Source: Persicimonas caeni (GTDB lineage Bacteria; Myxococcota_A; Bradymonadia; Bradymonadales; Bradymonadaceae). From it: a stretch of 64,000 nucleotides of DNA. The position numbers and the translations under genes were made by a program. The DNA lies in NCBI RefSeq assembly GCF_006517175.1, contig NZ_CP041186.1:4553074-4617073 (forward strand), written 5' to 3'. The notes beneath the pieces were generated by a model that worked only from the letters and a program-made list of their open reading frames with translations, had not been told where the DNA came from and did not search any database. Positions 6,984 to 59,512 of this stretch are shown here, piece by piece; the first letter of the stretch is position 1, and every line of letters starts with the position of its first letter.

Positions 6984-8999
6984 ATGGGTGAGAAGACATC
7001 CTCGAAAGAGAAGAAGTCCGCTGGCGGAAAGGCACGCGGTGATGCGCACTTCGATCCGCAGAGCTTGATTGGCGAGGTTCTCGACGACCGTTACGAGATC
7101 GAAGAGTGCATCGGGCGCGGTGGCATGGGTGTGGTGTATCTGGCCAGCCAGAGCGCGCTCGACCGCAAGGTCGTCATCAAGGTGCTGCCGCCCACGTTTG
7201 CCGAGGACGAAGAAGCCTCGGCACGCTTCGAGCGCGAAGCGCGTGGCATGAGTAAGCTGCAGCACCCGCATATCGTCTCCATCTACGACTTCGGCTACCA
7301 CGGCGATCAGGCCTATATCGTCATGGAGTACGTCGAGGGGATCACCCTTCGGCGGTTCATCAAGTCGACCAGTTCGGTCGACTTTTCGGTCTTCGGCGCC
7401 ATCGCCCTGCAGATCTTGGAGGGCATCAGCGAGGCGCATTCGCTGGGGCTTGTCCACCGGGACATCAAGCCGTCGAATATCATGCTCACCGAGCGGCGAG
7501 GCGAGAAGAACTACGTCAAGATCCTCGATTTCGGCCTCGCCAAGCTGGTCAAGGGCTCGACGGACGTGACCAAGGAGCAAAACCTGGTCGGCTCGGTGGC
7601 CTTTTTGGCCCCCGAGCAGATCATGGGCAACGACACCGACGAGCGCGTCGACGTGTACGCGCTGGGCGTGTTGTTCTACTTCATGCTCACCGGCGAGAAG
7701 CCGTTTGTGGGCGACGACGACGTCGCAGTGCTCTACCAGCACGTCCACAACGAGCCCGAGCGCCTCGAAGAGCGGCTCGTCGCGGGCCACGATATCCCCA
7801 AGTCGGTCCTCGACCTCATCCACCGCGCCCTCGCCAAAGATCCGGCCGAGCGTTTCCACAACGCCGGCCAATTTTTGTTCGAGTTCGGCGCGTGCATCGA
7901 CGGCACCGACATCTCTTCGCCGCACGTCAGCGGAGAATTCAACACCGCCTCGCGCGTCGCCAAGTTGAGCAGCCTGTCGCCCGACGACCCGAGCGCGCAG
8001 ATCTCGCGGCAACGTCGGGAGACGCCGATTCACCAGGTGCCCGCCGACGCCACCCCGTCGCATCATTCGGGCCTGGTCGCCCTCGGCGCCGACCCGAGCA
8101 CCGGGCAGGTGACTTGGGTGAGCGGCGAGCACTTGCTCAAAGTCGAGAAGCAAAACCGGCTGCGCAATATTCTGTTGGGCGTCTTCGGCGTGTTGTTGGT
8201 GGGCGGTGCGGCCTTCTTCTTCTATTCACAGCAAGCCGACATCCCCAGCCAAGAGAAGGTCCAGGGAGATATCGAGCAGGCGGTGGCGCTCATCGACAGC
8301 GGCAAGCTCGGCCAGGCCGAGGGCGCGCTGGAGATGGTCGAAGAAGACCTGAAGCACTACCCCGACCTCAAGAGCAAATACGTCGCCGCCGAGGACCGCC
8401 TCGAGATCGCGCAGTTGATGGCCAACGCCGCGCTCAACGCCGAAGATGGCGAGTTCGAAAAGGCGCTCGAGACCTACAAAAAGGTGTTGAGCCGCAACCC
8501 CAATCACGAGGGCGCCCGCGAGCAGTTGAGCGCAGTGCGCGAGAAGATGGACGCGGCCGCGGCGGAGAAGGCGGACGACGAGGCGAGCGCTGACATGGAG
8601 TTCGAGGCCGACGACACCGCCTCGAAGCCGGCGCCGACGCCCGAGCGAACGGGCGCGAAGGCTCCGCAGCGCACCCAGCGCTCGACCGGCTCCTCCAAGT
8701 CGACGGGAGCGTCGGGCGCGAAGGCCAAGCGGGCGAAGACGCAACCGTCGAAGAGTGCGAAACCCTCGACCCGTACGACGAAGAAGGCGACCGAGAAGGC
8801 CGCCAAGTCGGACAAGCCTTCCGAGACGGCTCCCAAGAAGACTACTTCCAACAAGTCGGCCTCCAAAAAGGAGAAGGCTTCGGACGACACGCTGCTGCTT
8901 CCCTCCGACAAGGAGTCGGGCTCGGACGACGACCCGAGCGGCGGCGACCTGTTGCCGGCCGACGACGGCAGCGGCGGCGGCGACCTGTTGCTCGACTGA
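6984..8999 (+). CDS. Hanks-type Ser/Thr protein kinase with membrane span and TPR tail
   Basis: 671 aa from ATG 6984 (a GTG at 6969 is also possible). Kinase domain about residues 37-310: Gly-loop GRGGMG 44-49, ATP-binding Lys66, alpha-C Glu85, catalytic HRD 158-160 with Lys162 and Asn165, DFG 182-184, APE 209-211. All catalytic residues are present. A membrane span follows at about 392-412, then a TPR-like helical region (GELEKALETYKKVLSRNP type), then a Lys/Ala/Ser/Thr-rich tail ending with acidic GGDLL repeats. The C-terminal part is expected to be periplasmic. This layout is typical of myxobacterial signalling kinases. It ends at a strong bidirectional terminator. Confidence 0.95.
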   Translation: MGEKTSSKEKKSAGGKARGDAHFDPQSLIGEVLDDRYEIEECIGRGGMGVVYLASQSALDRKVVIKVLPPTFAEDEEASARFEREARGMSKLQHPHIVSIYDFGYHGDQAYIVMEYVEGITLRRFIKSTSSVDFSVFGAIALQILEGISEAHSLGLVHRDIKPSNIMLTERRGEKNYVKILDFGLAKLVKGSTDVTKEQNLVGSVAFLAPEQIMGNDTDERVDVYALGVLFYFMLTGEKPFVGDDDVAVLYQHVHNEPERLEERLVAGHDIPKSVLDLIHRALAKDPAERFHNAGQFLFEFGACIDGTDISSPHVSGEFNTASRVAKLSSLSPDDPSAQISRQRRETPIHQVPADATPSHHSGLVALGADPSTGQVTWVSGEHLLKVEKQNRLRNILLGVFGVLLVGGAAFFFYSQQADIPSQEKVQGDIEQAVALIDSGKLGQAEGALEMVEEDLKHYPDLKSKYVAAEDRLEIAQLMANAALNAEDGEFEKALETYKKVLSRNPNHEGAREQLSAVREKMDAAAAEKADDEASADMEFEADDTASKPAPTPERTGAKAPQRTQRSTGSSKSTGASGAKAKRAKTQPSKSAKPSTRTTKKATEKAAKSDKPSETAPKKTTSNKSASKKEKASDDTLLLPSDKESGSDDDPSGGDLLPADDGSGGGDLLLD

Positions 9000-20498: not shown

Positions 20499-20703
20499 GG
20501 CCTTGCTGAAGAGTCACGCCATCTAAATGGGGCGCGCTGAAAAACGCGCGTTAAAGATTTAGGGGCTGCGAGTTGTAACGATGTAGAGGTTGCGAGTTGT
20601 GTCGGTTGCGAGTTGTGTCGACGTCACTACACGCAACCCCTATGTCCTTATCGCCCGCAGTTCAGGGCGCCCTATGTAGCAGGCGCTGCTCCCCGGCAAG
20701 GCT
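20499..20703. repeat. Family-A palindromic repeat element, copy 1
   Basis: An inverted pair. The left half begins GGCCTTGC at 20499; the right half ends with its complement GCAAGGC at 20697-20703. Each half carries a hairpin with an 8-nt loop beginning TGA: stem CGCGC/GCGCG on the left and CGCCC/GGGCG on the right. It fills most of the gap between the PanE-like gene and the histidine kinase. The middle has short direct copies of TTGCGAGTTGT. Confidence 0.85.
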
Positions 20704-28835: not shown

Positions 28836-29786
28836 ATGACGGTCGAGCAGACGATTCCGGTAGTCAATCTGGCAGATTACGACAGCGACGACCCCGAGGT
28901 GCGCGAGGCGTTCGTCAAGAAGTTCGGGGAGGGCTTGAACGACCTCGGTTTCGTGGCCGTCGAGGGCCACGGCGTGCCCCAGGAGCTCATCGACCGCAAC
29001 TACGAGCTGTTCGAAGAGTTCTTCGCGCTCGACGAGGAGACCAAGGGTAAGTACGAGCAGCCCGACAGCGGCCGCCAGCGCGGCTATACGCCGTTCGGCA
29101 TGGAGCACGCCAAGGACAACGAAAAACCCGACCTCAAGGAGTTCTGGCACGTCGGCCGCGAGTTTGACGCCGACAGCCCCCTGGCCAAGCGCATGCCGCA
29201 GAACGTGTGGCCCGACGAGCTCCCCGCATTCCGCGACAACACCCTCGCCCTGTACGACGCGCTCGAGGCGAGCGCCCACAAGATGCTCGCCGCCATCAGC
29301 GAGTACCTGGGCCAGCCCAAAGACTTCATCCCGAGCAAGGCCCAAGACGGCAACAGCATCATCCGCATCATCCACTACCCGGTGTGCGACGGCTTCGACG
29401 AGCCGGGCCAGATGCGCGCGGCCGAGCACGAGGACATCAACCTGATCACGCTCTTGCCGGCGGCGACCGACTCGGGGCTCGAGATCTTGACCCGCGACGG
29501 CGAATGGCTGCCGGTGCCGTCGCTCGAAGGTCAGCTCATCGTCGACACCGGCGACATGATGAAGCGCCTGACGAACGACGTCATCCCCGCCACCACCCAC
29601 CGCGTGGTCAACCCCGAAGGCGAGCCCGAGCCGCGCTACTCGATGCCGTTCTTCGTGCACCCGCACCCCGACGCCAGCCTCGAGGTCATCGCCGACTGCG
29701 TCCCCGAGGGCGAAGAGCCCAAGTACGAGCCGACGACGGCCGACGAGTACTTGCAGGAGCGTTTGCGCGCGATTGGCGTGGCGTGA
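28836..29786 (+). CDS. Fe(II)/2-oxoglutarate oxygenase, isopenicillin N synthase-like
   Basis: 316 aa, cytoplasmic. N-terminal DIOX_N region (IPVVNLADYDSDD, GFVAVEGHGVPQELID), then the double-stranded beta-helix core. Metal ligands are His198 and Asp200 (HEDINLITLL) and His255 (THRVVNP); the co-substrate carboxylate is met by Arg267/Ser269 (RYSMPFF). All are present, so it should be active. The family ranges from secondary-metabolite oxidases to nutrient catabolism; substrate is unknown and no cluster surrounds it. Family-C repeats begin one base after the stop. Confidence 0.92.
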   Translation: MTVEQTIPVVNLADYDSDDPEVREAFVKKFGEGLNDLGFVAVEGHGVPQELIDRNYELFEEFFALDEETKGKYEQPDSGRQRGYTPFGMEHAKDNEKPDLKEFWHVGREFDADSPLAKRMPQNVWPDELPAFRDNTLALYDALEASAHKMLAAISEYLGQPKDFIPSKAQDGNSIIRIIHYPVCDGFDEPGQMRAAEHEDINLITLLPAATDSGLEILTRDGEWLPVPSLEGQLIVDTGDMMKRLTNDVIPATTHRVVNPEGEPEPRYSMPFFVHPHPDASLEVIADCVPEGEEPKYEPTTADEYLQERLRAIGVA

Positions 29787-29787
29787 G

Positions 29788-29853
29788 GCGTTCGGTGCGG
29801 GGGCATCTTGCCCTCGTGAGGCCTTCGGTGCGGGGGCATCTTGCCCTCGTGTA
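29788..29853. repeat. Family-C hairpin repeat, two 33-bp units
   Basis: Units 29788-29820 and 29821-29853 each contain the hairpin GGGCA-TCT-TGCCC in the context TTCGGTGCGG...CTCGTG. The array begins one base after the TGA of the oxygenase gene and is followed by a family-A element. Confidence 0.9.
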
Positions 29854-29866
29854 TGAGCGATGCGAT

Positions 29867-30198
29867 GGCCTTGCAGGGGCGTGGCTCCTGCTATTTAGGG
29901 CGCCCTGAAAAGCGGGCGATAAGGATTTGGGGGTTGCGTGTTGCGACGAGGTTCCGATTCGAAGCGCCTGCTATTTAGGGCGCCCTGAAAAGCGGGCGAT
30001 AAGGATTTGGGGGTTGCGTGTTGCGACGAGGTTCCGATTCGCAGCGCCCGCTATTAGGGGCGAGGGCTGGAAAGCGCCCTCGAAGGCCATTAGTGAGTCG
30101 TTTCGTTGCGGCGTATGTGGTGCATTGAAACGACTCCATAATGGCCTGCGCCGCAGTTCAGGCGCCCCTAATAGATGGCGTGACTCTTCTGCAAGGCC
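29867..30198. repeat. Family-A palindromic repeat element, copy 2 (composite)
   Basis: Ends GGCCTTGCAGG (29867-29877) and TCTGCAAGGCC (30188-30198) are inverted. The left half is duplicated as an exact-length 80-bp tandem (29887-29966 and 29967-30046). A third hairpin, stem CGAGGGC/GCCCTCG, and a right-half hairpin, stem GCGCC/GGCGC, follow. All hairpins keep an 8-nt loop beginning TGA or TGG. A further inverted pair, GAGTCGTTTC (30095-30104) and GAAACGACTC (30127-30136), lies inside. Confidence 0.88.
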
Positions 30199-30210
30199 AC
30201 CACCCGAGCA

Positions 30211-30278
30211 ACCAGCGCTGGAAGCGCTGCCTCCGAAGGGACGGCGAAGCAACCAGCGCTGGAAGCGCTGCCTCCAAA
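30211..30278. repeat. Family-B hairpin repeat, two copies
   Basis: Two 27-bp copies at 30211-30237 and 30252-30278 starting accagcgctggaagcgctg. On the complementary strand each folds as CAGCGC-TTCCA-GCGCTG. They end 7 bases from the stop codon (30286-30288) of the minus-strand propeller/TPR gene, so they lie just downstream of it in its direction of transcription. Confidence 0.88.
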
Positions 30279-30285
30279 GGCGAAT

Positions 30286-33200
30286 TCACCAACACGGGCC
30301 GTAATTGCGACCGCAGGTCGCCATACGCAGCGCGCGGAGCGCGTGCTGCGTGCGGTCGTTCAGGTCCTCGGCCGGCAGTTGCTCGAGGAGCTGGCGCACC
30401 GCGCCGTATTCGCCGGCTTGGGCGCAGGCGTCGAGCAGCGTGTCCATTTCGTAGCGGCGGTTGGTGGGTGTCTGCTCGCGCAGGGTTTCGTAGGCGGCGG
30501 CGAGGTCGCCGACGGAGATCTGGGCGTCTTGGAGGTCGCTCAGGGCAAAGCGTTTGTCGCGGGTGCCGTCGGTGGCCAGTGCGGTGGCGCGTCCGAAGAG
30601 GCGCTCGTGGCGAGCGGCGTCGCCGGCGCGGTGGGCGGCCTTGGCGAGGCGCAGCACGTGGGCGAGTTCGTCGCCGCCGAGGATGTCGAGCAGGAGCTCG
30701 GCGCGCTCGAAGAGTTTCTCGCGCTCGAGGCCCTCTTCGTGGGTCGAGCCCAGGCCGCATAGGGCTGCGAATTGGTTCGTCTCGTCGTCGAATTCGTCGA
30801 CGATGGCGAGTGCTTCGACCGTGCGGCCGGTGGCGGAGGCTAGGGCGCCCCATTTCTGCAGGGCGTCGGCGGGCTTCCAGGCGGCCAAGATTTCGTCGAC
30901 GCGCTCTTCCAGCTCCACGGCCAACGCGTCTGCGCCGCGCTCGTCGAGGCGCACGAGAAGCTCCGCCCAGTCGAGCAACATCCCTACGTATTCGCGGTTC
31001 TCGTCGAGGTATCGGGCGCTCAGTTCAATGGAGTCTTCGCGGTGGCCGTTTTCGAGCATCGCCGTGACGATCTGCTCGCGATAGTGGGTCACCGACAAGC
31101 CGTCGAAGCGCGCGAGGAGCTGCCAGGCGCGCTCGTACTGCTCGGCGTCGATGAGGGCGTCGACGATGCCGTCGGCGAGGCGGAACTCCGAGATGTTCAT
31201 GCCGGCGGCCTCGCATCGGTCGAGCATCGAGTCGAGGCGGTCGAACTCGCCGTGGCGGGCCAGGTCGACGAGGTAGGCGCTCAGGAAATGGTTGAGCCAG
31301 CCGGAGTCCCACGGGCCTTCGAGGATGGCTGCGTCGGCTGCGTCGTAGTCGCCCATGGCCAAGTAGCCGCGGGCCAGCGCCAGGTAGCGCTGGAAGGCGT
31401 TGGCCTCCTGCTCGATATTCTCGCGCGCCATCTCGAAGAGTTCGTCGGCGCGCGCTTCGTTGCCCAGCACATGGTTGGCCGCGGCGAGCGGGGCGTAGGC
31501 GAAGGTGGTCGCCCAACCTTCGATGCCGTGCTCGGCGAACATCTCGGCGGTGGCGAGGGCTGTCTGGGCGGCTTCGGTGTGGCCGTTGCGCGCGAAGATG
31601 ACCGCGATGTCGGCGTTGGCCGCCACAAAGCCGTGGTCGGTGGCCGCGCTCTCGGCGGCCTGGCGAGCGGCCTCGACCTCGCCGCGCTCGGCGAGCATGA
31701 CGGCGACTTCGCGGTGGTGGTCGGCGGTGTGGCTCCTCCAGCCGGCGCCGAGCCCTCCGAGCGACTCGCGGTGGACGCTGAAGATATCGTCGAGGGTGGC
31801 CTCGGAGCCGAGGTCGAGCTCGGCCGGCTCGTCGGGCTCGGCCGGCTGGTGGCCGTCGAAGGGCACGGCCTCGCCCGCCGGCGCCTCGTCCCATTGAGTC
31901 GGCCAGGCGAATCGGCGGTCGACGACCCACCACGTCTCGTCGTCCGAGCGCTGCGTTGCACGGGCCAAGTCCCAGAACGCAAGGTGTTCCTTGCCCACGC
32001 AGACGATCGTGTCGTTCGCCCCCCACAAAATGCCGGCGGTGGGCTCGTCGACCTCGAGGGTTGCCAGGTGCTCGGGCTCGGCGCCTACGGCAAAGACCTC
32101 GACGGTCGCCTGGGCGGTCAGGCATGCTGCGCGCTTGCCGCCGGGCGCCCACGCCCAGAGCTTGGCGTCTTCGAAGTCCCAGATGTCGCCGGGCGCGCCC
32201 GGCGCGAGGTCGACGCTGCCCAGGTACTCGCCGTCGTCGTAAAGGTGCACGCCGGGGTCGGCGCCAAATTGGTTGTCGGGCTCGACGACCATCGCCAGGA
32301 GGCGCGAGTCGGCGCCCGGCGCCCACGACAGCTCCGAGCCTCCCATATGCATCGGCATCTGCGAGGTCGGCAGGCCGCTGTCGGCGTCGTAGAAGACGAG
32401 CCCCGTCAGGTCGTGGGCGAAGACGGCGCCGTCGGGCCGCCAGGCGACGTGGCGGCCGACCGTCGAGAGCCACTCGATGTCGCCCGAGGCGACGTCGATG
32501 GCGTAGGCCTGCAGGTGGCCGTTGTGCCCGAAGAGGTGCGTCCCCTCGGGCGAAAATTGCAAGAACTCCTGCGGCTGAATCTCCTCGACGTCGCCGTCCT
32601 CGAGCGTCAGCGCCTCGACGATGGGCTCGCCGAGCTCGTCGGCGAACCAACCGGCGTCGTCCTCGTAGACGTGGTCGGTCTGAAACTCCGCGATGCACCC
32701 CGGCACGGCCGACGGGCCCCAGCAGCCCACTGCGACGGCCTGGCCGTCGGGACGCCAGCACCACGCCGGCGGCCGGCTCCAGCCGTGGGTCACCGCCACC
32801 CAAGTGCCCGGCTCGTTGCGGGCGCCGAAGGGGGCGAAGTCGCCGACCGCGTTAGTCGAAAACGCCGCGCCCACGCGGCTTCCGTCGGGGCTCCACTGGA
32901 TGCAATTGGCGTAGCCGGGCCAGCCGACGCCGCCGTCGACGCCGTCGAGGACGTTGACGAGCCGGCCGGTGGCGACCTCCCAGATCTGCAGCGTGCCGCC
33001 TGCGTTGTAGTCCGCGCCGACCCAGGTGCCCACGGCCAGATGCTCGCCGTCGGGACTCAGCGCGTAGGCGACGAAGGGTTCGGTGTGGCGAAAACGGGGA
33101 CGGAGTTGGGCGCCGCGTGCGCGAATCGCGGCCGTGCAGGCGTGGTGGAGTTCACCGACGCCGTCGGTCTCGGCGAGGCGCTCGAGGCGCGCGCGGAGCT

Positions 33201-33339
33201 CGGGCAGGTCGCGCGCGGCGACGAAATGCTCCCAGTCGGCCGCGTCGATGGCTGCTTGCAGCTCGGCGGGCGAGAGGTCGGTGGAAAGCTCGTGCCAATC
33301 AACAAAGGCAGGAGTGGCTGAGGCGTCGGACATGCTCAT
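30286..33339 (-). CDS. WD40-like propeller plus TPR-like protein, 1017 aa
   Basis: Cytoplasmic; no signal peptide or membrane span. After about 70 helical residues, an N-terminal half (about 75-460) contains WD40-like blades (YALSPDGEHLAVGTWVGAD, CIQWSPDGSRVGAAFSTNA, VAWRPDGAVFAHDLTG, HLAFWDLARA). The C-terminal half (about 510-1010) is a run of TPR-like helical pairs (MLAERGEVEAARQAAESAA, RARGYLAMGDYDAADAAIL-type). Such combinations act as protein-interaction scaffolds. A Met at 33333 is an alternative start. It is flanked on both sides by the composite repeat C-A-B in the same orientation. Confidence 0.82.
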   Translation of the reverse strand: MSMSDASATPAFVDWHELSTDLSPAELQAAIDAADWEHFVAARDLPELRARLERLAETDGVGELHHACTAAIRARGAQLRPRFRHTEPFVAYALSPDGEHLAVGTWVGADYNAGGTLQIWEVATGRLVNVLDGVDGGVGWPGYANCIQWSPDGSRVGAAFSTNAVGDFAPFGARNEPGTWVAVTHGWSRPPAWCWRPDGQAVAVGCWGPSAVPGCIAEFQTDHVYEDDAGWFADELGEPIVEALTLEDGDVEEIQPQEFLQFSPEGTHLFGHNGHLQAYAIDVASGDIEWLSTVGRHVAWRPDGAVFAHDLTGLVFYDADSGLPTSQMPMHMGGSELSWAPGADSRLLAMVVEPDNQFGADPGVHLYDDGEYLGSVDLAPGAPGDIWDFEDAKLWAWAPGGKRAACLTAQATVEVFAVGAEPEHLATLEVDEPTAGILWGANDTIVCVGKEHLAFWDLARATQRSDDETWWVVDRRFAWPTQWDEAPAGEAVPFDGHQPAEPDEPAELDLGSEATLDDIFSVHRESLGGLGAGWRSHTADHHREVAVMLAERGEVEAARQAAESAATDHGFVAANADIAVIFARNGHTEAAQTALATAEMFAEHGIEGWATTFAYAPLAAANHVLGNEARADELFEMARENIEQEANAFQRYLALARGYLAMGDYDAADAAILEGPWDSGWLNHFLSAYLVDLARHGEFDRLDSMLDRCEAAGMNISEFRLADGIVDALIDAEQYERAWQLLARFDGLSVTHYREQIVTAMLENGHREDSIELSARYLDENREYVGMLLDWAELLVRLDERGADALAVELEERVDEILAAWKPADALQKWGALASATGRTVEALAIVDEFDDETNQFAALCGLGSTHEEGLEREKLFERAELLLDILGGDELAHVLRLAKAAHRAGDAARHERLFGRATALATDGTRDKRFALSDLQDAQISVGDLAAAYETLREQTPTNRRYEMDTLLDACAQAGEYGAVRQLLEQLPAEDLNDRTQHALRALRMATCGRNYGPCW

Positions 33340-33461
33340 GGCAAACCTGTCTGCTGGGTTGTCGTTTTCGCGTGACAGGCAAGATGACAGGCGGGGCGGT
33401 GGGAATCAACGCGAAGTCGCGTTTACCACAGAAATGTTGCAAACAGGGCGATCGGGGGCTG

Positions 33462-33584
33462 AACTCGGTGCGTGGGCATCTTGCCCTCGTGAGGCCTTCG
33501 GTGCGGGGGCATCTTGCCCTCGTTCGGTGCGTGGGCATCTTGCCCTCGTGAGGCCTTCGGTGCGGGGGCATCTTGCCCTCGTAT
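33462..33584. repeat. Family-C hairpin repeat, four units
   Basis: Four units of 29-32 bp, alternating GTGCGTGGGCATC and GTGCGGGGGCATC, each with GGGCA-TCT-TGCCC. They lie about 120 bp upstream of the propeller/TPR gene start. The alternation suggests duplication of a two-unit block. Confidence 0.9.
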
Positions 33585-33598
33585 TTGTGCGACGCGGC

Positions 33599-33767
33599 GG
33601 CCTTGCAGGAGCGCGGCGCCATCTAAATGGGGCGCGCTGGAAAACGCGCGATAAGGACATGAGGGCTGCGAATTGGGACGTGGTCTTGGTTCGAAGCGCC
33701 GGCTCCTTAATGGCCCGCGCCGCAGTTCAGGCGCCCCTAATAGATGGCGCCACTAACCTGCAAGGCC
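33599..33767. repeat. Family-A palindromic repeat element, copy 3
   Basis: A 169-bp element with inverted ends GGCCTTGCAGG (33599-33609) and CCTGCAAGGCC (33757-33767). The similarity between arms continues inward through GCGCCATCTA. Left hairpin stem CGCGC/GCGCG with loop TGGAAAAC; right hairpin (read on the minus strand) stem GCGCC/GGCGC with loop TGAACTGC. Confidence 0.9.
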
Positions 33768-33778
33768 ACCGTCAAAGA

Positions 33779-33805
33779 ACCAGCGCTAAAAGCGCTGCCT
33801 CCAAA
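33779..33805. repeat. Family-B hairpin repeat abutting a stop codon
   Basis: A 27-bp copy starting accagcgctaaaagcgctg. It ends at 33805, directly next to the stop codon (33806-33808) of the minus-strand paraoxonase-like gene. Confidence 0.88.
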
Positions 33806-34870
33806 CTACTCCCCACCCATCTCACACACCACGAGATGCGGGTCGAAGACCGGCCCGATGACCAGCGTGTCGTCGCGTGCGGTGCCCACGGCCGCGCCGG
33901 AGATAGGGTCGCCGTCGTCGAGGTAGATCTCCTCGACGTTCCAGTTCTCGGGGCCGGCGCGCTCGAGGCGGATGACCTCCGACGGGGAGCGCGACTCGGG
34001 GTCACCGGCGTGGCTCAGGAAGGCGAGGAGGTTGGGGTGGCCGGCGACCCACAGCGTGTTGGCGGGGGTGACGCCGATATTGTCGACGCCCATGTTGGTC
34101 TCGACGGTGTGCTTGCGCTCGAGATCGTTCGTGGCGGGGTCGCGCTTGAAGATCTTGATCGTCTTGGCGATCGTCTCGGCCAGGTAGAGTTCCGTGCCGT
34201 CGGGGCTCACGTTGATGCCGTTGGCGTATTGGGTGCCGCCGTAGACCTCGCGGAAGTCCTCGCCGTCGTAGAAGACGACGTTGCCGCGGGCGAGCTGCAG
34301 GAAGTCCTCGATGGTGTGCATCCACAGCTCGGAGCTGCCGTGGTCGTTGGTCACGTAGAACTGGTCGGGGCCGACCGCGACCACGTCGTTCGGCGAGACG
34401 AGCGCCTCTGAGGTGATCGACTCGACGTGCTCGAGGGAGCCGTCGTCGGTGACGTCGAACACCTCGATGGAGTGCGGGGCAGTCATGCCGTTGTGGTGGT
34501 TGACCACAAAGAGACGTTCGAGCCCGTCTTCGCCCACGTAAAGGTGCAGCCCGTGCGGGTGGAACGGGATGTCGAGCTCGGGCGTGATGTCGACGGGCAC
34601 CGCCTTCGGGTCGGCGGGGCGAAGCCGGTAGATGTGGCCGGGGCTGCCCAGGGCGCGCCGGTCCTGCGCGGCCACGTAGACGTGCTCGCCGTCGGGATGC
34701 CACTGCAGATCCTCGCCGCCGACGATGTCCTCGACCTTGCGGCATTCGCCGGGGAGGTGAGGGTCAATATCGCGAAAGGCGCCGGCTTTGCTCATCGTGT
34801 AGATGGCGAAGGCGCCGATGGCGAAGGCGACGGCGGTGGTGCCGATGATTACTTTTCGTTTCTCGATCAT
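33806..34870 (-). CDS. Paraoxonase/arylesterase-like six-bladed propeller protein
   Basis: 354 aa from the ATG at 34870; the longer frame to 34990 reads into a repeat. One N-terminal membrane span (about residues 7-26, IIGTTAVAFAIGAFAIYTMS) is probably an uncleaved anchor. The body has the SMP-30/paraoxonase propeller pattern: GEDLQWHPDGEHVYVAAQDR, IPFHPHGLHLYVGEDG, LFVVNHHNGMTAPHSIEVF, SPNDVVAVGPDQFYVTNDHG, YANGINVSPDGTELYLAETI, VDNIGVTPANTLWVAGHPN. The His/Asn/Asp calcium ligands of PON1 have counterparts in these segments. It may be a lactonase or arylesterase at the cell envelope. Confidence 0.8.
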   Translation of the reverse strand: MIEKRKVIIGTTAVAFAIGAFAIYTMSKAGAFRDIDPHLPGECRKVEDIVGGEDLQWHPDGEHVYVAAQDRRALGSPGHIYRLRPADPKAVPVDITPELDIPFHPHGLHLYVGEDGLERLFVVNHHNGMTAPHSIEVFDVTDDGSLEHVESITSEALVSPNDVVAVGPDQFYVTNDHGSSELWMHTIEDFLQLARGNVVFYDGEDFREVYGGTQYANGINVSPDGTELYLAETIAKTIKIFKRDPATNDLERKHTVETNMGVDNIGVTPANTLWVAGHPNLLAFLSHAGDPESRSPSEVIRLERAGPENWNVEEIYLDDGDPISGAAVGTARDDTLVIGPVFDPHLVVCEMGGE

Positions 34871-34942
34871 GGCGGGGAGTTTGGCAGGTGATTGGTGATC
34901 GTGCAATTGGCGCGGGGGCAGAGGAGTTTGCCTTTCAGGGTC

Positions 34943-35040
34943 GCTGCGCCTGCTACATGGGGCGCGCTGAACGACGCGCTCGGAGGACATAGGAGTTGCG
35001 TATCGCGACTTGGTTCCAACTCGCAGCCCTGATGTCCTTC
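34943..35040. repeat. Degenerate family-A repeat, copy 4
   Basis: A left half starting GCTGCGCCTGCTACATGGGG, with a shortened hairpin (GCGC stem, loop TGAACGAC) and the trailing GGACATAGGAGTTGCG. A right remnant TCGCAGCCCTGATGTCCTT follows. The full inverted ends are missing. It lies in the divergent gap between the paraoxonase-like gene and the 318-aa lipoprotein. Confidence 0.75.
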
Positions 35041-40626: not shown

Positions 40627-43600
40627 GTGTTACGTAGTGCGCATTTGAGATCGCTCGTATTATTAATGCTTTCTACCTTCGTCTTCGCCGCGTGCGGCGA
40701 CGACGAAGCAAAGAAGCCGGATCCGCTGGAGGTGACGGCGCTGACCGCCGAGCCGGCGAGTGGCCAAGCCCCGCTGGAGGTGACGTTTACGGTCGAGCCG
40801 ACCGGCGGCACCGAGCCGTACGAGGCGATGTGGGACCTGGGCGTGGAGACCGACGAAGAGGTCACCGGCCTCGAGGCCACCCACACCTATTATCGTGAGG
40901 GGACCTACGACGTGACCGTGGTGGTCACCGACGCCGAAGGCTTCAAGCAAGAGGAGACGGTCGAGCTGGTCGTCGACCCGGCCGACCCTCCCACGGTCAA
41001 CGCCTCGGCGAGCCCGGAGATGGGCATCGCGCCGCTCGACACCACTTTCGAGGTGACCGCCGAGGGTGGCTCGGGTGAGTTCGAGTACGAATGGCAGTTC
41101 GGCGACGGCAGCTTCTCGAACGAGAAGAACCCGGCGCACCGCTACATCATCGGGGGTACCTACACCGCCAAGGTCACCGTGACCGACGTGCTCACCGAAA
41201 AAGAGACGACCCAAGAGGTCACCGTCGAGGTGGCCGACGACGAGACGCCCTTCGTGTCGGCGACCGCCGACCCGGCCCGCGGCATCGCCCCGCTGAACGT
41301 CGCGCTCGACGCGCAGGTCTTCGGCGGCAACGAACCGCTGACCTACACCTGGGACTTCGGCGACGGTTCGGCAGAAGCCGACGGCCAGAGCCAGTCGCAC
41401 GAGTACACCGACCCGGGCAGCTACAAAGCCGTGGTGACCGTCGAGGACGCCGACGGCGACACCGCCCGCTCGGAAGTCACGATCAACGTGCTCGACAACG
41501 CGGTTCCCTCGGTCGACATCTTCGCCGAGCCGACCAGCGGCATCGCGCCGCTGACCGTGCAGTTCGACCCGCAGGCCCAGGGCGGCGAAGCGCCGCTGAC
41601 GTTTGCCTGGGACTTCGGCAACGGCGACACCGCCGACACCCGCAAGCCGAGCTACACCTTCCAGGACGCCGGCACCCACACGGTGACCGTGACGGCCACC
41701 GACGCCAACGGCGACACCGCCACTGACACGATCGACATCGAGGTGACCAGCGACGAGATCCCGACGGTCACCGCCTCGGCGACGCCGACCGACGGGCTGG
41801 CGCCGATTCAGGTGCAGTTCGACGCGACCGCCTCGGGCGGCAACGGCACGCTCACTTACCAGTGGAGCTTCGGCGAGGGCACGACCTCGGACCTCGAAGA
41901 TCCGGTGCACACCTACTCGGCCGCCGGCCAGTACACCGCCACGGTGACCGTGCGCGACGAAAACGGCGACACGGCCACCGACACCATCAGCATCGACGTG
42001 GGCGACAACCTGATCCCGTCGGCCAACGCCTCGGCGACCCCGGCCACCGGCCGCGCGCCGCTGCCGGTCGACTTCTTCGCCAACGCCACCGGCGGCAACG
42101 GCACATTGACTTACGCATGGGACTTCGGTGACGGTAACACCAGCACCGACCAGAATCCCTCGCACACCTTCAACACTCCGGGCACCTACAACGTGTCGTT
42201 GATCGTGACCGACGGCGACGGCAGCACCGACGGCTCGACGGTCACCGTCGAGGTGCTCGACGACGCGCAGCCGACCGTGTCGGCCAGCGCCACCCCGGAC
42301 ACCGGCATCGCGCCGATCAACATCCAGTTCGACGCCACCGTGACCGCCGGCGACGCGCCGTTCACCTACTCGTGGGACTTCGGCGACAGCTCGGCCACCC
42401 AGACCGGCCCGCGCCCGAATCACTCGTACACCTCGGGCGGCACCTACACCGCCACCGTGACGGTGACCGACGCCGACGGCGACACCACCAGCGACACCGT
42501 CGACGTGACCATCGCCGACGATGAAGTGCCTGCGGTGAGCGTGACCGCCGACCAAGACACCGGCACCGCGCCGCACACGGTCAACTTCACGACGAGCGCC
42601 ACCGGCGGAAACGCCCCGTTGAGCTACACCTGGTACTTCGGCGACGGCTCGGCCCCGGGCAGCGGTGACACCATCGCGCATACCTATCAGAACGCCGGCG
42701 TCTACGAGGCCACCGTCGTGGTGACCGACGCCAACGGCGACACCGCGCGCGACACGGTCACCATCAACGCGCGCGCCAACGCGCCGGATCTGACCATCGA
42801 GTCGTTCACGGCTGCGCGCACCGGCAACGACGTCGACTTCACCATCGTGCTCCGCAATGACGGCACCGCCGAACTCGTCCATCCCTTCGACGTGCGCCTG
42901 TACTATGACGAAGCTCAGGCGCCGACGGCGAGCACCCAGTCGAACCGCTCCGAGCGCGTCTATGACGTGATTCCGCCGGGCGGGACCTACACGGTGACCT
43001 TCACCGCCTTCGATCGCAATATCGGCAGCTACGACGCCTACGTCTTCGCCGATCCGCGACAAGAGTCGGCCGACCTCGATCGTAGCAACAATATCAGCGG
43101 ACCGGAGACCTTCATCATCGACGGGCTGCTCATCAGCGAGGTGTTGTACGACACCGTCAGCACCGACGATCCCGACCAGACGTTCATCGAGCTGTTCGGA
43201 CCGGCCGGCAAAGACCTGTCGGGCTACGAGCTTAGCGCGATCAACGGAACCGACGGCACGTCCTACGACACGATTACCCTGGCGCAAGGAACGACCATTC
43301 CGGCCAACGGCTACCTGGTCATCTCCTCGGCGAACCACCCCGAGGTCGACGTCGTCGCCAACGCCAACCTGCAGAACGGCCCCGACAGCCTCGAGGTCCG
43401 CGACCCGCAGGGCGGTCTGGTCGACGCGCTCGGCTATGGTGACTTCGCCGGCGCCGGTCTGCTCGCCAACTTCTTCGGCGAAGGTTCGGCGGCCCGCAAT
43501 CCGGGCCCGGGCGTCTCGCTGGGGCGCAGCACCGACCAGTCGGATACCGACGACAACAGCGTCGACTTCTACTCGTGGGCCCAGCCGACGCCGGGCGCCG

Positions 43601-44058
43601 AGAACAACGTCACGCTGAGCAACAACGCCGACACCTGCGCCGACGCCTACGACCTGACCGGCGGAGGGGAGGGGCGCTTCTACGTCGAGGGCAACCTCGG
43701 CACGGCGACCAACACCTACACCACCCGCAGCACGAGCGGCACGCAAGGCTATTGCTCGGCGACCAGCAACACGTTCTCGGGCCCCGACCAGATCTTCGCG
43801 ATTACGGTGCCCACCGGCGAGACGGCCGACGTGACCTTCTCGCTGGCCGACAACGCCAACGTGGACGTCGACGCGGTCATCACCGCCGACCCGTGCACCT
43901 CGCTCGACACCGGCATGATCGGGTGCAACCCGGTCGGCACCGAGTACTTCACGCTCACCGAGGGCACCTATTACCTGGTGGTCATGGAAGATGGCGGCAA
44001 CAACCTGTCGTCGTCGAACGAGCCGTACTCCATCTCCCTCGACGTGACGTTCCAGTAA
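40627..44058 (+). CDS. Giant surface lipoprotein: 8 PKD, CARDB, lamin-tail and pre-peptidase domains
   Basis: 1143 aa. Lipobox FAAC with Cys23. Eight PKD repeats of about 85 residues follow (to about residue 718), each with an SGxAPLxVxF-type entry and a YTWDFGDG-type core and separated by VTDADGDT linkers. Then come a CARDB-like domain (LTIESFTAARTGNDVDFTIV), a lamin-tail domain (LLISEVLYDTVSTDDPDQTF, IELFGPAGKDLSGYELSAIN) and a C-terminal pre-peptidase-type domain (FAITVPTGETADVTFSLADN, TYYLVVMEDGG). No enzyme domain is present, so it is probably an adhesive or scaffold surface fibre. A strong terminator follows. Confidence 0.92.
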   Translation: MLRSAHLRSLVLLMLSTFVFAACGDDEAKKPDPLEVTALTAEPASGQAPLEVTFTVEPTGGTEPYEAMWDLGVETDEEVTGLEATHTYYREGTYDVTVVVTDAEGFKQEETVELVVDPADPPTVNASASPEMGIAPLDTTFEVTAEGGSGEFEYEWQFGDGSFSNEKNPAHRYIIGGTYTAKVTVTDVLTEKETTQEVTVEVADDETPFVSATADPARGIAPLNVALDAQVFGGNEPLTYTWDFGDGSAEADGQSQSHEYTDPGSYKAVVTVEDADGDTARSEVTINVLDNAVPSVDIFAEPTSGIAPLTVQFDPQAQGGEAPLTFAWDFGNGDTADTRKPSYTFQDAGTHTVTVTATDANGDTATDTIDIEVTSDEIPTVTASATPTDGLAPIQVQFDATASGGNGTLTYQWSFGEGTTSDLEDPVHTYSAAGQYTATVTVRDENGDTATDTISIDVGDNLIPSANASATPATGRAPLPVDFFANATGGNGTLTYAWDFGDGNTSTDQNPSHTFNTPGTYNVSLIVTDGDGSTDGSTVTVEVLDDAQPTVSASATPDTGIAPINIQFDATVTAGDAPFTYSWDFGDSSATQTGPRPNHSYTSGGTYTATVTVTDADGDTTSDTVDVTIADDEVPAVSVTADQDTGTAPHTVNFTTSATGGNAPLSYTWYFGDGSAPGSGDTIAHTYQNAGVYEATVVVTDANGDTARDTVTINARANAPDLTIESFTAARTGNDVDFTIVLRNDGTAELVHPFDVRLYYDEAQAPTASTQSNRSERVYDVIPPGGTYTVTFTAFDRNIGSYDAYVFADPRQESADLDRSNNISGPETFIIDGLLISEVLYDTVSTDDPDQTFIELFGPAGKDLSGYELSAINGTDGTSYDTITLAQGTTIPANGYLVISSANHPEVDVVANANLQNGPDSLEVRDPQGGLVDALGYGDFAGAGLLANFFGEGSAARNPGPGVSLGRSTDQSDTDDNSVDFYSWAQPTPGAENNVTLSNNADTCADAYDLTGGGEGRFYVEGNLGTATNTYTTRSTSGTQGYCSATSNTFSGPDQIFAITVPTGETADVTFSLADNANVDVDAVITADPCTSLDTGMIGCNPVGTEYFTLTEGTYYLVVMEDGGNNLSSSNEPYSISLDVTFQ

Positions 44059-44081
44059 GGAATCCACTTCGAGCGTAGATG

Positions 44082-44207: not shown

Positions 44208-45752
44208 ATGAGCGACTTGCTCGACGAACACGATGACGAATTGGCCGCGCTCGAGCGCGCCGGCAAGCGCCGCAACGCGGTGACCGTAGCGATGATCATT
44301 GCCACGGTGATCGCCTTGTTGGGCGTGGGCGGCGTGCTCATCGGCAAGGTGATGTATCCGGGCATCGGGGAGTACGTCGAGGCGGTCTTGGCCGGCGAGC
44401 AAGACGTCTTCGGCGACCCGGTCTACACGCCCGAGCACGAGGTGTCGGCCGACGAGTTGGCCGAGAACGTCGACCTGCAAGAGGTCCACGCCGAGCTGTT
44501 GACCCACTGGCTGTCGTCGTTGTCGTACGACGAGGCGGGCCAGCCCTCCAAGCGCACCCTCGAGCGCTTCGAGGCGTTGCAGAAGGCCGTCGAGCCCGAC
44601 CCGAATCTGCACGCCATCGTTACCGAGCTCGGCGAGCTGATGCACTCGGAGAAAGCCGCCGACAAGAGCGATCGCGTGCTGTACTTGACCTGGGCGTGGA
44701 ACGACTACATGCGCCAGAAGGATCAGCCGTATCACTTCGAGGCGAATATGATGCTGCGCCAGCGCGGGCCCATGCTCTACACCAAGAACTACCACCTGGC
44801 CGGCGAGGTGAAGTTCGGCCTCGACGACGAGCGGTACACCGCGCTCTTGGCCCAGCGTATCGACAACACCAACGTCGTCGAAAACTACCTGTGCCGGGCC
44901 ACCGAGGCCGACGAGCGACCCCTGTGGGTCGTCGACACCAGCGCGCGCGAGGCGGCGAACCACGTCTGGCCGATGTTGTCGGCGGACAGCGACGCTACCC
45001 TCGAACCCGTCAAGCAGGCGTTCGCGCCGGCGATTCGCAAAGAAGCCAAGGAGATGCTCTCGCCGGAGGCGCTCGCGACCCTCGAGAGCTCCGCGTTCGC
45101 GCGCCACCAACTCATGGCCACGGTCGACGCCATCAACGAGCGCGACTGCAACAAGTTTCGCTTCTCGTTCAAGCCGCTCGTCGCCTACGACTCGGGTCGC
45201 CTGCTGCGACTGGAGTCGAAGGCGGCGATGGCGCAGCACTCGGCATGCCCCGACATCACCCCGGTCGAACTCAGAACGCTCATCGACAACTCCGACAAGC
45301 TCGAGATGCGCCGCGAGGAGATCCGGGTTGCTCTGCAAGAACTCACGGCCTGGATTGCGCGGCCGCGCCTGGTCCACGAGGTACGCCATCGCGCCGACGA
45401 AGAGCGCCACTACGCCCGCACGATCCCGCTGGGCTGCCCCGGCTGCGACTCGCTCATGGCCCCGCGCGAGCAGGCCGAGCTCTCCGGCTACCTCGCCGGG
45501 GTCGCCTACAGCGGCGCGCCCGCCGCCGGGCTCTTTCGCGCCTGCTGGGTCAACGCGACGAGCAGCACGTACCACAAACGCGCCATCGAGCCTCTTGTCA
45601 CCGAGCTCGCCAAGGGTCAAAATTGCGAGCAAGGACCGGTGGACAACCTGCAGCAGAGAGCGAAGAAGGCCGACGTGGAGCTTTTCGATCGCGACGAGCC
45701 GCTCGAAAAGATTGGTGAGTGGCCGGCGAACGTTGAAATCGGCGAATGGTAG
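44208..45752 (+). CDS. Single-span membrane protein of unknown function
   Basis: 514 aa from the ATG at 44208. A short charged cytoplasmic N-terminus is followed by one membrane span (about residues 24-47), then a large extracytoplasmic helical domain of about 465 residues. The domain contains four Cys in its last third (ACPDIT, GCPGCDS, RACWVN) and no recognised family. The GCPGC pair may bind metal or form a disulfide. Its TAG stop overlaps the first base of a five-unit 30-bp hairpin array. Confidence 0.78.
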   Translation: MSDLLDEHDDELAALERAGKRRNAVTVAMIIATVIALLGVGGVLIGKVMYPGIGEYVEAVLAGEQDVFGDPVYTPEHEVSADELAENVDLQEVHAELLTHWLSSLSYDEAGQPSKRTLERFEALQKAVEPDPNLHAIVTELGELMHSEKAADKSDRVLYLTWAWNDYMRQKDQPYHFEANMMLRQRGPMLYTKNYHLAGEVKFGLDDERYTALLAQRIDNTNVVENYLCRATEADERPLWVVDTSAREAANHVWPMLSADSDATLEPVKQAFAPAIRKEAKEMLSPEALATLESSAFARHQLMATVDAINERDCNKFRFSFKPLVAYDSGRLLRLESKAAMAQHSACPDITPVELRTLIDNSDKLEMRREEIRVALQELTAWIARPRLVHEVRHRADEERHYARTIPLGCPGCDSLMAPREQAELSGYLAGVAYSGAPAAGLFRACWVNATSSTYHKRAIEPLVTELAKGQNCEQGPVDNLQQRAKKADVELFDRDEPLEKIGEWPANVEIGEW

Positions 45753-45901
45753 AATTCGATGGCAGGGCATCTTGCCCTGGTGAGTTCGGTGGCAGGGCAT
45801 CTTGCCCTGGTGAGTTCGGTGGCAGGGCATCTTGCCCTGGTGAGTTCGGTGGCAGGGCATCTTGCCCTGGTGAGTTCGGTGGCAGGGCATCTTGCCCTGG
45901 T
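45752..45901. repeat. Family-C-like hairpin array, five exact 30-bp units
   Basis: Units of 30 bp at 45752, 45782, 45812, 45842 and 45872, each with the hairpin AGGGCA-TCT-TGCCCT. Units 2-5 are identical. The array starts on the last base of the preceding stop codon and ends 19 bases before the next start. It is open in the frame of the following gene. Confidence 0.95.
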
Positions 45902-45920
45902 GAGTATGTGTGAGGGTGTT

Positions 45921-56083: not shown

Positions 56084-59000
56084 TCATTCGCCGACGGATT
56101 CCCCGTTGGCGGTCATCCACAGACACGCTCGCTCGACGCCCTCGCCGCAGGCGCGTCCGACCATCTCGACGCCGGCATCCCAGTCGTGGTTCGAGAGGCC
56201 GACTCCGCGTCCGTAGCAGTACTCGCCCGAACCCAGCGCGCACGCCTTCTTGGACAAGTCGTAGACCGCGTCGCCGGTCAGCGGCTTCTTGGAGTGGAGG
56301 TCCATCGCCACGCGAAGCTGGCAGCCCAGCTTCTCGTCGGCCTCACACGCCTGCTCGTAGCGTGTGGCGGCCGCGTCGAACGAGGCCTTCGCGCCGATGC
56401 CATACTCGTTGGCAAGCCCCAACACCACACAAGCCGTCGCGTCGTCTTTCTGCTCGCATTGCTCGATCAGCGCCTCCGCGTCGGCCTTCTCGAGGCGAGT
56501 TTGGTGGTCGCGAAGCGCCTCGGCGCGCGCGCAGCTGTTGAACTCGCCCATCTCGCAAGCTCGCTCGAACATCTCGATCGCCTTGGTCAGGTCGCGCCCG
56601 ACCGCCACGCCGTGGGAGAGTAGCTCGCCTTGCTGGATGCAGCCGGTGGCGTTGTTTCGCTCACACGCGCTCTTGCTGCGCTGGGCCAGCGGCTTGGCCT
56701 TGGCAGAGTCGCCTCTCATCATCAACGCGGCCAGGTAGCTCAGGCAGCCGGTGCTCTCGTCGGCGGTGCACGTGTCTGCCAACGTGTTGACCGCCCGCGT
56801 GTAGTCACGATCGACGCCCAGCCCGTGCAGATATGCCGTGCCCACGGCGCGGCAAGCCACCGGATTATCGTCGTCGCACAGGCTCTGGTACAGGTCGACC
56901 GAACGGGTCAAATCGAGCTCGTCGCTGTGGCCGAACCTCATGAAGTAGGCGGCTTCGTAGCACGCCGTTTCGAGATCGCTGTCCTTGCACAGGGCGACCA
57001 ACTTATCGACCCCCTTCTGGCGGTCGCGCGGGAAGAGCTCTCCTGTCGACTTCTGCTCACCGATCTCGATGCAGGCGCTGGCGATGTCCTCGTCGCACTT
57101 CTTGCGAAGGTACTCGCGTGCGGCTGAAAAGTCGGTCCTGTCGCCATCTCCATGGGCGATCAGGTGCGCCGCCCAATCGCAGTGGCCGTAGACGCCGTCT
57201 TCACAGTTGTTGCGCACGATGTCGAGGGAGCGTTTGGCCTTCGTCGACGCCTGCTTCGGATCGGCCGGGGCGCCCATGCCCAACCGGAGCCGGTCGGCGA
57301 GCTTCGAGCACGAGGTGGCTCCATCGGCTTCACAACCGGTCGACAGGAACCCGACGGCGTCCTCGAGCGACTGCTCGACGTGAACGCCGCGGGTGACCAG
57401 GTTGGCCACGTCGATGCACGCGGCGTCGCTGCCCAGGTTGCACGCCTTGGTCAGGTACTTCTTGGCCACCTCGGGCTGGTAGGCTGTTTGCGTCCCGTTG
57501 AGCTTCATGCGCGCGACCGAGCGGCACGAGTCGACATGCTCGTCTTTGCAGGCCGCCTCGTACAACTCGAGCGCCTTTTTGGCGTCGCGGTCTACGTCCT
57601 CACCGGCTTCGTAGATGCTGGCGAGGCGGTAGCAACCGGTCTCGAAGCCCTGCGTGCACGAGCGCCGATACAACTCGACGGCCTTCTCTCGGTCCTTCTC
57701 GACGCCGACGCCGAAGTAGTAGCGCGAGGCGAAGTTCGAGCACCCCCTCCCGAAGTCCATCAAGCACGCCTTCTCGAAGTAGTCGGCGGCTTCGATATGT
57801 GACTCCTCGTCGTCGAGCGAAGCGTGGATGCTTCCCAGATCGTCGCACGCTTCCGGCTCTTCGTTGGTGCACGCAAATTCATAGAGCTGGATGGCCTGGC
57901 GAAAGCTCTCCTCGGAGTTCGCCCGAAGGTAGAACTGGGCGAGGCGGGTGCACGAGCGGATATGGCCGTTGGCGCATCCGTTTCGGAACATCTGCTCGGC
58001 GCGAGCCTCGTCTTTGTCGGCCCCTTCGCCGTCGGCGTAAAAGTCGCCGAGTTCGCCACACGCGTCGCCAAGGCCACGCGTGCAGGCTTTCTCGAGATAG
58101 TCGACCGCGCGGGTGACGTCCTTTTCGACCCCGTCGCCCTTGGCGTACCGACTGCCGAGCACGTGGCAGGCCTTGTCCGCGCCGCCGTCACACCCCTTGC
58201 GGTACATCCCCAACGCGCGCTTCTCGTCCGACTCGACGAGCAGGTCGCCCGCAGCTTCGCACGAGTCGGCGTAGTCGAGCGCACAGCCCTTCTCGTGCAG
58301 CTCGAGCGCGCGCTCCTCGTCGGCGTCGAAGTTCACGCCGTACCCGTAGGCCTTGGCGGACAGATAGCAGGCGTATCCGCGCTCCTGCTTCTTGTCGTCT
58401 TCGCAGTGATCGGCGTACTTGGAGGCCTCCTTCGGCTCGAAGAGTCTGTATTTGAGGTCGCGGTACAGGTCGCACGCGTCGTTCGAACCCGCCTTGCAGC
58501 CCTTGTGGGCGAGCTTGGAGGCGGTGACGGTGTTCGCCTCGAGCCCTTCGCCTCGGAAGGTCTTCTGCGCCAGGTGATAGCAGCTCTCGGGAGAGCCCTG
58601 GGCACAACCGGCGCGGAACAATGCCACTGCATGCTCGTCACCGACGTACCTTCCGCGAATCTCGCCGCGCTCGATGAGTCGGCCGGCGAACGTGCAGCCG
58701 TGCTTGAAGCCGTTCTTGCAGCCGGCCAGCGCCATGTCGATGAACGACTGATTGGTGATCGCCGCCCACTCGGCGAGCAGCTCCTCGTCATCCTTGGGCG
58801 GCTCGCGGTCGACGCTGGCGCACGCTTTGGCGTGATTGAGGTCACAGGCCGCGTGGAGCTTCTCTTTGGACTTCGACAGGTTGGTCGAGGTGCCAAAGCC
58901 GGTCTCCCACATCTTGCCGAGGCGGAAACAGCCTTCGGCGTAATCCGCCGCGCAGCTTCGACGATAGTAGTCGAACGCATCTTGCTTCTCGCGCGGCGCG

Positions 59001-59512
59001 GTAGCGTACTCTTCGAAGATGGTGCCCAGGGTGTGGCAGATCGAGCCCATGCCCGCCTTGCAGCTGCGGTCCATCAACCGGAAGCCGCGAGCTTGCTCTT
59101 GCTGGGAGGAACTCTGCAGCATCATCTGCGCTTGCAGCAGACAGCTCGTCTCGTTGCCGAAGTCGCACCCCTGCTTGGCGAGCCTATAGGCATGGTCGTT
59201 GTTGCTGGCGAGCGCCTGTTGGCTGATCGCTTTGGACAGCCCCACTGAACTCAACGAGAGCACCGCGGCGGTGGTGCACCCGAGGCCATCTCCCGCTCTA
59301 CACGCGGCTTCGCCTGTCATGCGGGTCAGCTTGACGCCGCATTTGTCTTCCATCAAGAGCTCGCTCGAGGGTGTGGCGCCCGATGGGCAGACCTCGTCGA
59401 GCGGGCGCTCATTGGCGCGAAGGTAGGAGTAGGACGATCGGCAAGCCGACAGCGCCACCATGCAAATCATCAGGCATAAAAGAGCAAGACTTCGAAGGGC
59501 TTCGAAACGCAC
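56084..59512 (-). CDS. Sel1/TPR Cys-rich repeat lipoprotein, 1142 aa
   Basis: Lipobox LSAC with Cys24. From about residue 65 to the end the protein is a run of Sel1-like repeats of about 36 residues, each with a pair of Cys (ACRAGDGLGC, GCDFGNETSC, ACDLNHAKAC, GCAQGSPESC and so on). The same layout is found in the Helicobacter Hcp and other exported Sel1 proteins, where Cys pairs form disulfides within repeats. An exported solenoid of this size is likely a protein- or peptidoglycan-interacting scaffold. The number of repeats is high for the family. Confidence 0.92.
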   Translation of the reverse strand: MRFEALRSLALLCLMICMVALSACRSSYSYLRANERPLDEVCPSGATPSSELLMEDKCGVKLTRMTGEAACRAGDGLGCTTAAVLSLSSVGLSKAISQQALASNNDHAYRLAKQGCDFGNETSCLLQAQMMLQSSSQQEQARGFRLMDRSCKAGMGSICHTLGTIFEEYATAPREKQDAFDYYRRSCAADYAEGCFRLGKMWETGFGTSTNLSKSKEKLHAACDLNHAKACASVDREPPKDDEELLAEWAAITNQSFIDMALAGCKNGFKHGCTFAGRLIERGEIRGRYVGDEHAVALFRAGCAQGSPESCYHLAQKTFRGEGLEANTVTASKLAHKGCKAGSNDACDLYRDLKYRLFEPKEASKYADHCEDDKKQERGYACYLSAKAYGYGVNFDADEERALELHEKGCALDYADSCEAAGDLLVESDEKRALGMYRKGCDGGADKACHVLGSRYAKGDGVEKDVTRAVDYLEKACTRGLGDACGELGDFYADGEGADKDEARAEQMFRNGCANGHIRSCTRLAQFYLRANSEESFRQAIQLYEFACTNEEPEACDDLGSIHASLDDEESHIEAADYFEKACLMDFGRGCSNFASRYYFGVGVEKDREKAVELYRRSCTQGFETGCYRLASIYEAGEDVDRDAKKALELYEAACKDEHVDSCRSVARMKLNGTQTAYQPEVAKKYLTKACNLGSDAACIDVANLVTRGVHVEQSLEDAVGFLSTGCEADGATSCSKLADRLRLGMGAPADPKQASTKAKRSLDIVRNNCEDGVYGHCDWAAHLIAHGDGDRTDFSAAREYLRKKCDEDIASACIEIGEQKSTGELFPRDRQKGVDKLVALCKDSDLETACYEAAYFMRFGHSDELDLTRSVDLYQSLCDDDNPVACRAVGTAYLHGLGVDRDYTRAVNTLADTCTADESTGCLSYLAALMMRGDSAKAKPLAQRSKSACERNNATGCIQQGELLSHGVAVGRDLTKAIEMFERACEMGEFNSCARAEALRDHQTRLEKADAEALIEQCEQKDDATACVVLGLANEYGIGAKASFDAAATRYEQACEADEKLGCQLRVAMDLHSKKPLTGDAVYDLSKKACALGSGEYCYGRGVGLSNHDWDAGVEMVGRACGEGVERACLWMTANGESVGE

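Follow-up and report, generated by a model that had tools for sequence, protein, structure and literature searches.

The gene for a 1017-aa protein in Persicimonas caeni lies between two composite intergenic repeats of the same build, which raises the question of whether it is a cassette moved by these repeats or a resident gene between two repeat-bearing spacers. The genome consists of 8,047,206 bases (8.05 Mb) in one contig, and the window analysed here is the whole stretch of 64,000 nucleotides at positions 4553074-4617073. Positions given as window positions and those in Table 1 are counted from the first letter of this stretch, all others along the genome.

Repeat mapping of both loci confirmed the description in the first-pass annotation, according to which three repeat families, C, A and B, occur at each side of the gene in the same order and orientation. 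A 2OG-Fe(II) oxygenase gene and the 1017-aa gene converge, and the left composite (window 29791-30278) takes up the spacer between their 3' ends. The right composite (window 33465-33805) is located upstream of the 1017-aa gene and has the 3' end of an arylesterase/SGL-like gene on its other side. A 19-mer of C, with a chance expectation of 0.01 in the window, is present in two copies on the left and four on the right, and B, with an expectation of 0.00, in two copies on the left and one on the right. A role of the repeats as terminators was rejected, since only two weak intrinsic terminator sites were predicted and shuffled sequences give more; no Rfam family of structured RNA was found in the window. 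Two other regions of the window contain long open frames. At 40627-44067 two antisense frames of more than 1100 aa overlap, of which the plus-strand frame encodes eight PKD domains and is probably the real gene, and the minus-strand frame has no family match; at 56084-59512 the minus strand carries an open frame of 1142 aa with Sel1 repeats.

Table 1. Genes and repeat elements at the two composite loci (window positions).
Feature	Position	Strand	Remarks
2OG-Fe(II) oxygenase gene	28836-29786		convergent with the 1017-aa gene
C left, two tandem 5' REP halves (TTCGGTGCG + hairpin GGGC-ATCTT-GCCC)	29791..29850	+	about 4 nt past the 2OG oxygenase stop codon
C-A linker left, 16 nt	29851..29866	+	
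A left, long imperfect palindrome, ends GGCCTTGC/GCAAGGCC	29867..30198	.	nested inner palindromes
Tandem duplication of 80 nt in left A	29887..30059	+	2.2 copies, 96% matches; right A without duplication
B left copy 1, 3' REP half (CCAGCGCTGGAAGCGCTGCCTCC)	30212..30237	+	
B left copy 2, tandem	30253..30278	+	7 nt from the 3' end (stop codon) of the 1017-aa gene
1017-aa gene	30286..33339	-	between the composites
C right, four 5' REP halves	33465..33582	+	59-nt unit twice, exact
C-A linker right, 16 nt	33583..33598	+	
A right, shorter palindrome, ends GGCCTTGC/GCAAGGCC	33599..33767	.	
B right, 3' REP half	33780..33805	+	abuts the arylesterase/SGL-like stop codon
Arylesterase/SGL-like gene	33806-34990	-	

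Statistics on repeat clusters were obtained from 2.05 Mb of the genome in 101 stretches; these were picked around known hits and are enriched in repeats, so that cluster densities come out too high and divergent copies in other parts of the genome may in some cases have been missed. Half-elements were called by fuzzy patterns that allow up to 5 mismatches, and a B palindrome may match these in either orientation. The published P. caeni genome was obtained from Illumina PE150 reads according to its methods (PMC7188933); if the strain is the same, copy numbers of the tandem arrays, being exact repeats, carry some assembly risk.

The three families had been taken to be unrelated, which does not hold for C and B, as these represent REP half-elements of two sister RAYT transposases. 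In the sampled genome the full C element has the form TTCGGTGCGTGGGCATCTTGCCCTCGT-CTGCGAGAGCTGGAAGCACTCGCACCGAA and the full B element the form TTTGGAGGCAGGGCATCTTGCCCTGG-linker-CCAGCGCTGGAAGCGCTGCCTCCAAA. Each is a pair of inverted hairpins with the loop ATCTT in the first and TGGAA in the second, and 61 C pairs and 35 B pairs display the inverted arrangement characteristic of REPINs. Full REPINs of C and B are predicted to fold into one long single-stranded DNA hairpin (z = -5.05 and -4.50). The C repeat of the window corresponds to the first half of a C-family element, and the B repeat to the second half of a B-family element. Both families are dispersed in high copy number, with 291 matches to a C 18-mer at no more than 1 mismatch (control 0) and 139 matches to B at no more than 3 mismatches (control 1). 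A C 21-mer has 327 exact copies in the genome, none in 38 relatives and none in the control, and its 24-mer version was found in a single contig of a public genome collection; among REP families, so narrow an occurrence is common. Several REP types and linker motifs occur as a mosaic within one intergenic cluster, as in BIMEs. The tags at the foot of the hairpins, GGAG in B and CGGTG in C, depart from the canonical GT[AG]G (GTAG/GTGG). GTAG is the commonest REP tag and is not universal (PMC8266576); related classes have variants, CnGA among them (PMC6006769).

The Y1_Tnp domain was found at 26 places in the genome. A RAYT-like protein of 248 aa is encoded at 5453046 by a gene that has five C halves to one side and, to the other, a C half in inverted orientation. 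The protein passes the Pfam cut-off for Y1_Tnp and matches REP_Tyr_transpos (NF047646, NCBIfam) with an E value of 3.9e-18 and 65.7 bits, below the curated cut-off of 80. The scan with the curated model covered this C-linked protein, and the B-linked RAYT, encoded at 3489459 between two direct blocks of B arrays, was placed by its 63% identity to the C-linked one over 213 aa. Both C and B are thus associated with a tyrosine transposase gene that has the cognate repeat on both sides. The score under the NCBIfam cut-off, together with the GGAG and CGGTG feet, points to a divergent RAYT/REP branch.

The order of the halves follows a rule. Neighbours on the same strand in the sample comprised 61 c5-c3, 35 b5-b3, 4 c5-b3 and 2 b5-c3 pairs (5 and 3 denoting 5' and 3' halves), and the reverse orders b3-c5 and c3-b5 were encountered 0 times in the sample. 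Among the hybrid C/B pairs that lack A, six out of six have the ATCTT half first and the TGGAA half second. Four of the loci without A, at 5657705, 7787129, 1618432 and 220306, carry C followed by B with a gap of 24-25 nt, so the position of C before B is a rule of this class of repeats and is not special to the surroundings of the 1017-aa gene.

Variants of C also occur in other contexts. A tandem array of five 30-nt copies at window 45747-45905 consists of a C variant with a compensated stem (CAGGGCATCTTGCCCTGG). Six exact copies exist of a C half with an identical 38-nt sequence behind it, at 1002161, 1741300, 1819577, 2674400, 2748689 and 4043876. The two of them that were read share a stretch of about 1.7 kb with a transposase-like frame of 514 aa, and an insertion sequence therefore seems to bear a C hairpin near its end.

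The third family, A, is of a different kind. Its copies are from about 170 to 335 nt long and consist of two arms bounded by the outer ends listed in Table 1. The hairpin stems of the arms vary in sequence yet stay complementary (CGCCC/GGGCG, GCGCG/CGCGC, GCGCC/GGCGC) and enclose a TGAAC-type loop, and folding as single-stranded DNA gave z = -8.6 for the left A (window 29867-30201) and z = -5.6 for the right A (window 33599-33771). Of 60 A-bearing clusters in the sample, 51 contain A alone. Two IS200-type genes, at 4646629 and 6666516, are flanked on either side by arms similar to those of A (E values from 1e-6 to 0.07 with the arm HMM), which suggests that A is a non-autonomous relative of IS200-type elements. 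The linkers of B REPINs offer a candidate site for A: of the 122 B halves examined, 22 are preceded at a distance of 22 nt by the motif GCAAGGC (or GCAAGCC), and the A palindromes of the window end 20 and 21 nt before the B half, at nearly the same place, a coincidence noticed post hoc. Either A may enter at this motif, or the motif may be a leftover of A.

Additional forms of A were observed. A solo element is located at window 20499-20703, and a degenerate A-like palindrome at window 34930-35039, on the start side of the arylesterase-like gene. At 6260688-6261676 and 6155140-6157207, A palindromes with alternating arms are repeated in tandem at intervals of about 240-260 nt, and the first of these arrays ends beside a C array. 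Five near-identical copies with the same flanks were found at 7562, 381514, 533016, 5326975 and 5559397; as the flanks are shared too, these copies lie within a longer repeated sequence. A tRNA-linked explanation of the five copies was rejected, since a scan of four of the five stretches showed no tRNA gene beside them.

In order to resolve whether the two composites are kin, they were compared with each other and with the repeat clusters of the sample. The search for C-A-B elsewhere, which had been proposed as a check, returned the left and right loci only: among the 234 clusters in 2.05 Mb, these two are the only ones with all three families, against 91 clusters with C, 51 with A and 73 with B as the single family. 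On random shuffling of labels, both three-family clusters were neighbours in 11 of 5000 trials. The families are thus mostly found on their own, one half of what would have spoken against a composite unit according to the first-pass annotation, but the other half, a random order, was not observed. In a global alignment, left and right are collinear from C via linker and A to B and are interrupted by a single large gap, the left being about 160 nt longer owing to its 80-nt tandem duplication and an inner segment missing from the right. The similarity of the joining sequence that had been reported earlier was also found, as both C-A linkers are 16 nt long with 10 of 16 positions identical; the one further C-A linker of 16 nt in the genome, at 6334352, has 6/16 identity to each of them. 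The inner junction TTCGAAGCGCC[T/G]GCT is common to left and right and was found nowhere else in the 2.05 Mb, and left, right and one other locus (1001922) are identical over 30 nt of the 3' arm.

The 5' arms of the two A palindromes tell a less simple story, belonging to different subfamilies. The left arm is 80-81% identical to several other copies and no nearer to the right one, and the right arm has its best match (89%) at 6155348, which leaves some doubt as to whether the composites share an ancestor in their entirety. The left and right A are about 24% divergent in the aligned 5' part; with this distance and the different subfamilies of the arms, a recent duplication of the whole composite was rejected. 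An independent assembly of C, A and B in two repeat-tolerant spacers at gene 3' ends, with the order set by the REPIN class and the linker preference of A, is a possible but less probable explanation. It would account for the unlike 5' arms, for C-A junctions at four other loci (3314063, 5544976, 6261669 and 6334352) and an A-B junction at 1001903, and for the tendency of one family to occupy neighbouring spacers (36 of 98 close pairs, 29 being expected by shuffling); it does not readily explain why the genome sample contains just two C-A-B composites and these as neighbours, or why they have linker length, linker identity and inner junction in common. With moderate confidence, these sequence comparisons argue for an old common origin of the two composites followed by swapping of arms, one of them probably having been copied locally from the other long ago. 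Hybrid REPINs are thought to move as a unit, and the earlier proposal that the composite does so gains partial support from the collinearity through shared junctions and from C and B being halves of a hybrid REPIN.

The 1017-aa gene itself looks like a native, ordinary chromosomal gene. Its product has an N-terminal beta-propeller-like region and a C-terminal helical-repeat-like region; of the propeller/TPR architecture assigned to it before, the propeller has weak matches, and TPR was not confirmed by Pfam. Partial and weak relatives of the protein (31-39% identity) are present in five genomes of the family, and a search of a collection of genome contigs returned none; the gene is single copy. 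A recent horizontal gain was rejected, since its codon distance (0.221) and GC3 (0.891) are within the range of its neighbours. The gene is not accompanied by an integrase or transposase, and together with its single copy and neighbour-like codons this leaves the earlier idea of a cassette unsupported. Orthologues of the flanking genes are located on separate contigs in related genera, and no empty site was seen there.

Direct repeats on both sides of a gene could mark the two termini of a mobile element, IS200/IS605-type or composite, by which the gene is moved in or out, and the genome contains like geometries: the B-linked RAYT between direct B-array blocks, and an IS200-type gene between direct A-type blocks. 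Such an origin of the bracket is nevertheless very unlikely, given the features of the gene described above, with no transposase inside, and the divergence of the left and right A. Recombination between the loci that excises the gene is possible in principle, because the C repeats are exactly identical over about 50 nt, but very many loci have C stretches of similar identity and the bracket is therefore not specific. It is extremely improbable that hybrid REP composites with an IS200-type palindrome inside serve as two ends between which a RAYT or TnpA carries a whole host gene, here the 1017-aa gene, as a single-stranded passenger. The collinear and direct composites could also have resulted from a tandem duplication of composite and gene with subsequent loss of one gene copy. 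This is unlikely: no remnant of a second gene copy was seen, and the loss would have to be exact, because the right composite runs straight into the stop codon of the arylesterase-like gene.

The explanation that we favour, with a probability of roughly 0.7, is that each flanking locus is a BIME-like hybrid REPIN with A in its linker, that the two arose by local copying, and that the 1017-aa gene is a resident between two repeat-bearing spacers. The 5' half is C, the REP of one RAYT, amplified in tandem, and the 3' half is B, the REP of the sister RAYT. Each RAYT is supposed to nick single-stranded REP hairpins of its own family and to copy or multiply them, hybrids arising where the sister families are joined. 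An A palindrome would have entered the linker between the hybrid halves, and this single ancestral composite would later have been copied into the adjacent spacer, in one direction or the other; afterwards the left one may have gained its 80-nt duplication, or the right one lost inner sequence. Two sister RAYTs in one genome, each with its own expanded repeat family, and hybrids of fixed order between these families offer a natural test of how REP specificity splits after duplication of a transposase, the bracketed gene itself being ordinary.

Among known systems, the closest likeness is to BIMEs and REPINs with their RAYT (TnpA-REP) transposases, which likewise comprise abundant intergenic hairpin repeats, inverted pairs and tandem amplification (PMC2817692, PMC3116915, PMC8266576) and a cognate Y1 transposase gene flanked by copies of the repeat (PMC2817692); BIMEs mixing the REPs of two RAYTs have been reported in Stenotrophomonas (PMC2817692). 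The P. caeni repeats differ in their tags, GGAG and CGGTG instead of GTAG, in the unlike loops of the halves of one REPIN, ATCTT and TGGAA, and in the palindrome of 170-335 nt within the linker. The REP-targeting insertion sequences ISPpu9 and ISPpu10 are similar in that a mobile element lies beside or within a REP (PMC1525189, PMC8450116), but A is non-coding and itself palindromic, and its putative insertion at REPs is deduced from recurrent junctions. In TIRtrons, too, longer palindromic repeats enclose Y1 transposase genes, and REPs have also been described as dimers tied to larger palindromes (PMC3733652); there the REP dimer lies inside the palindrome (PMC3733652), whereas in P. caeni the A palindrome lies inside the REP pair.
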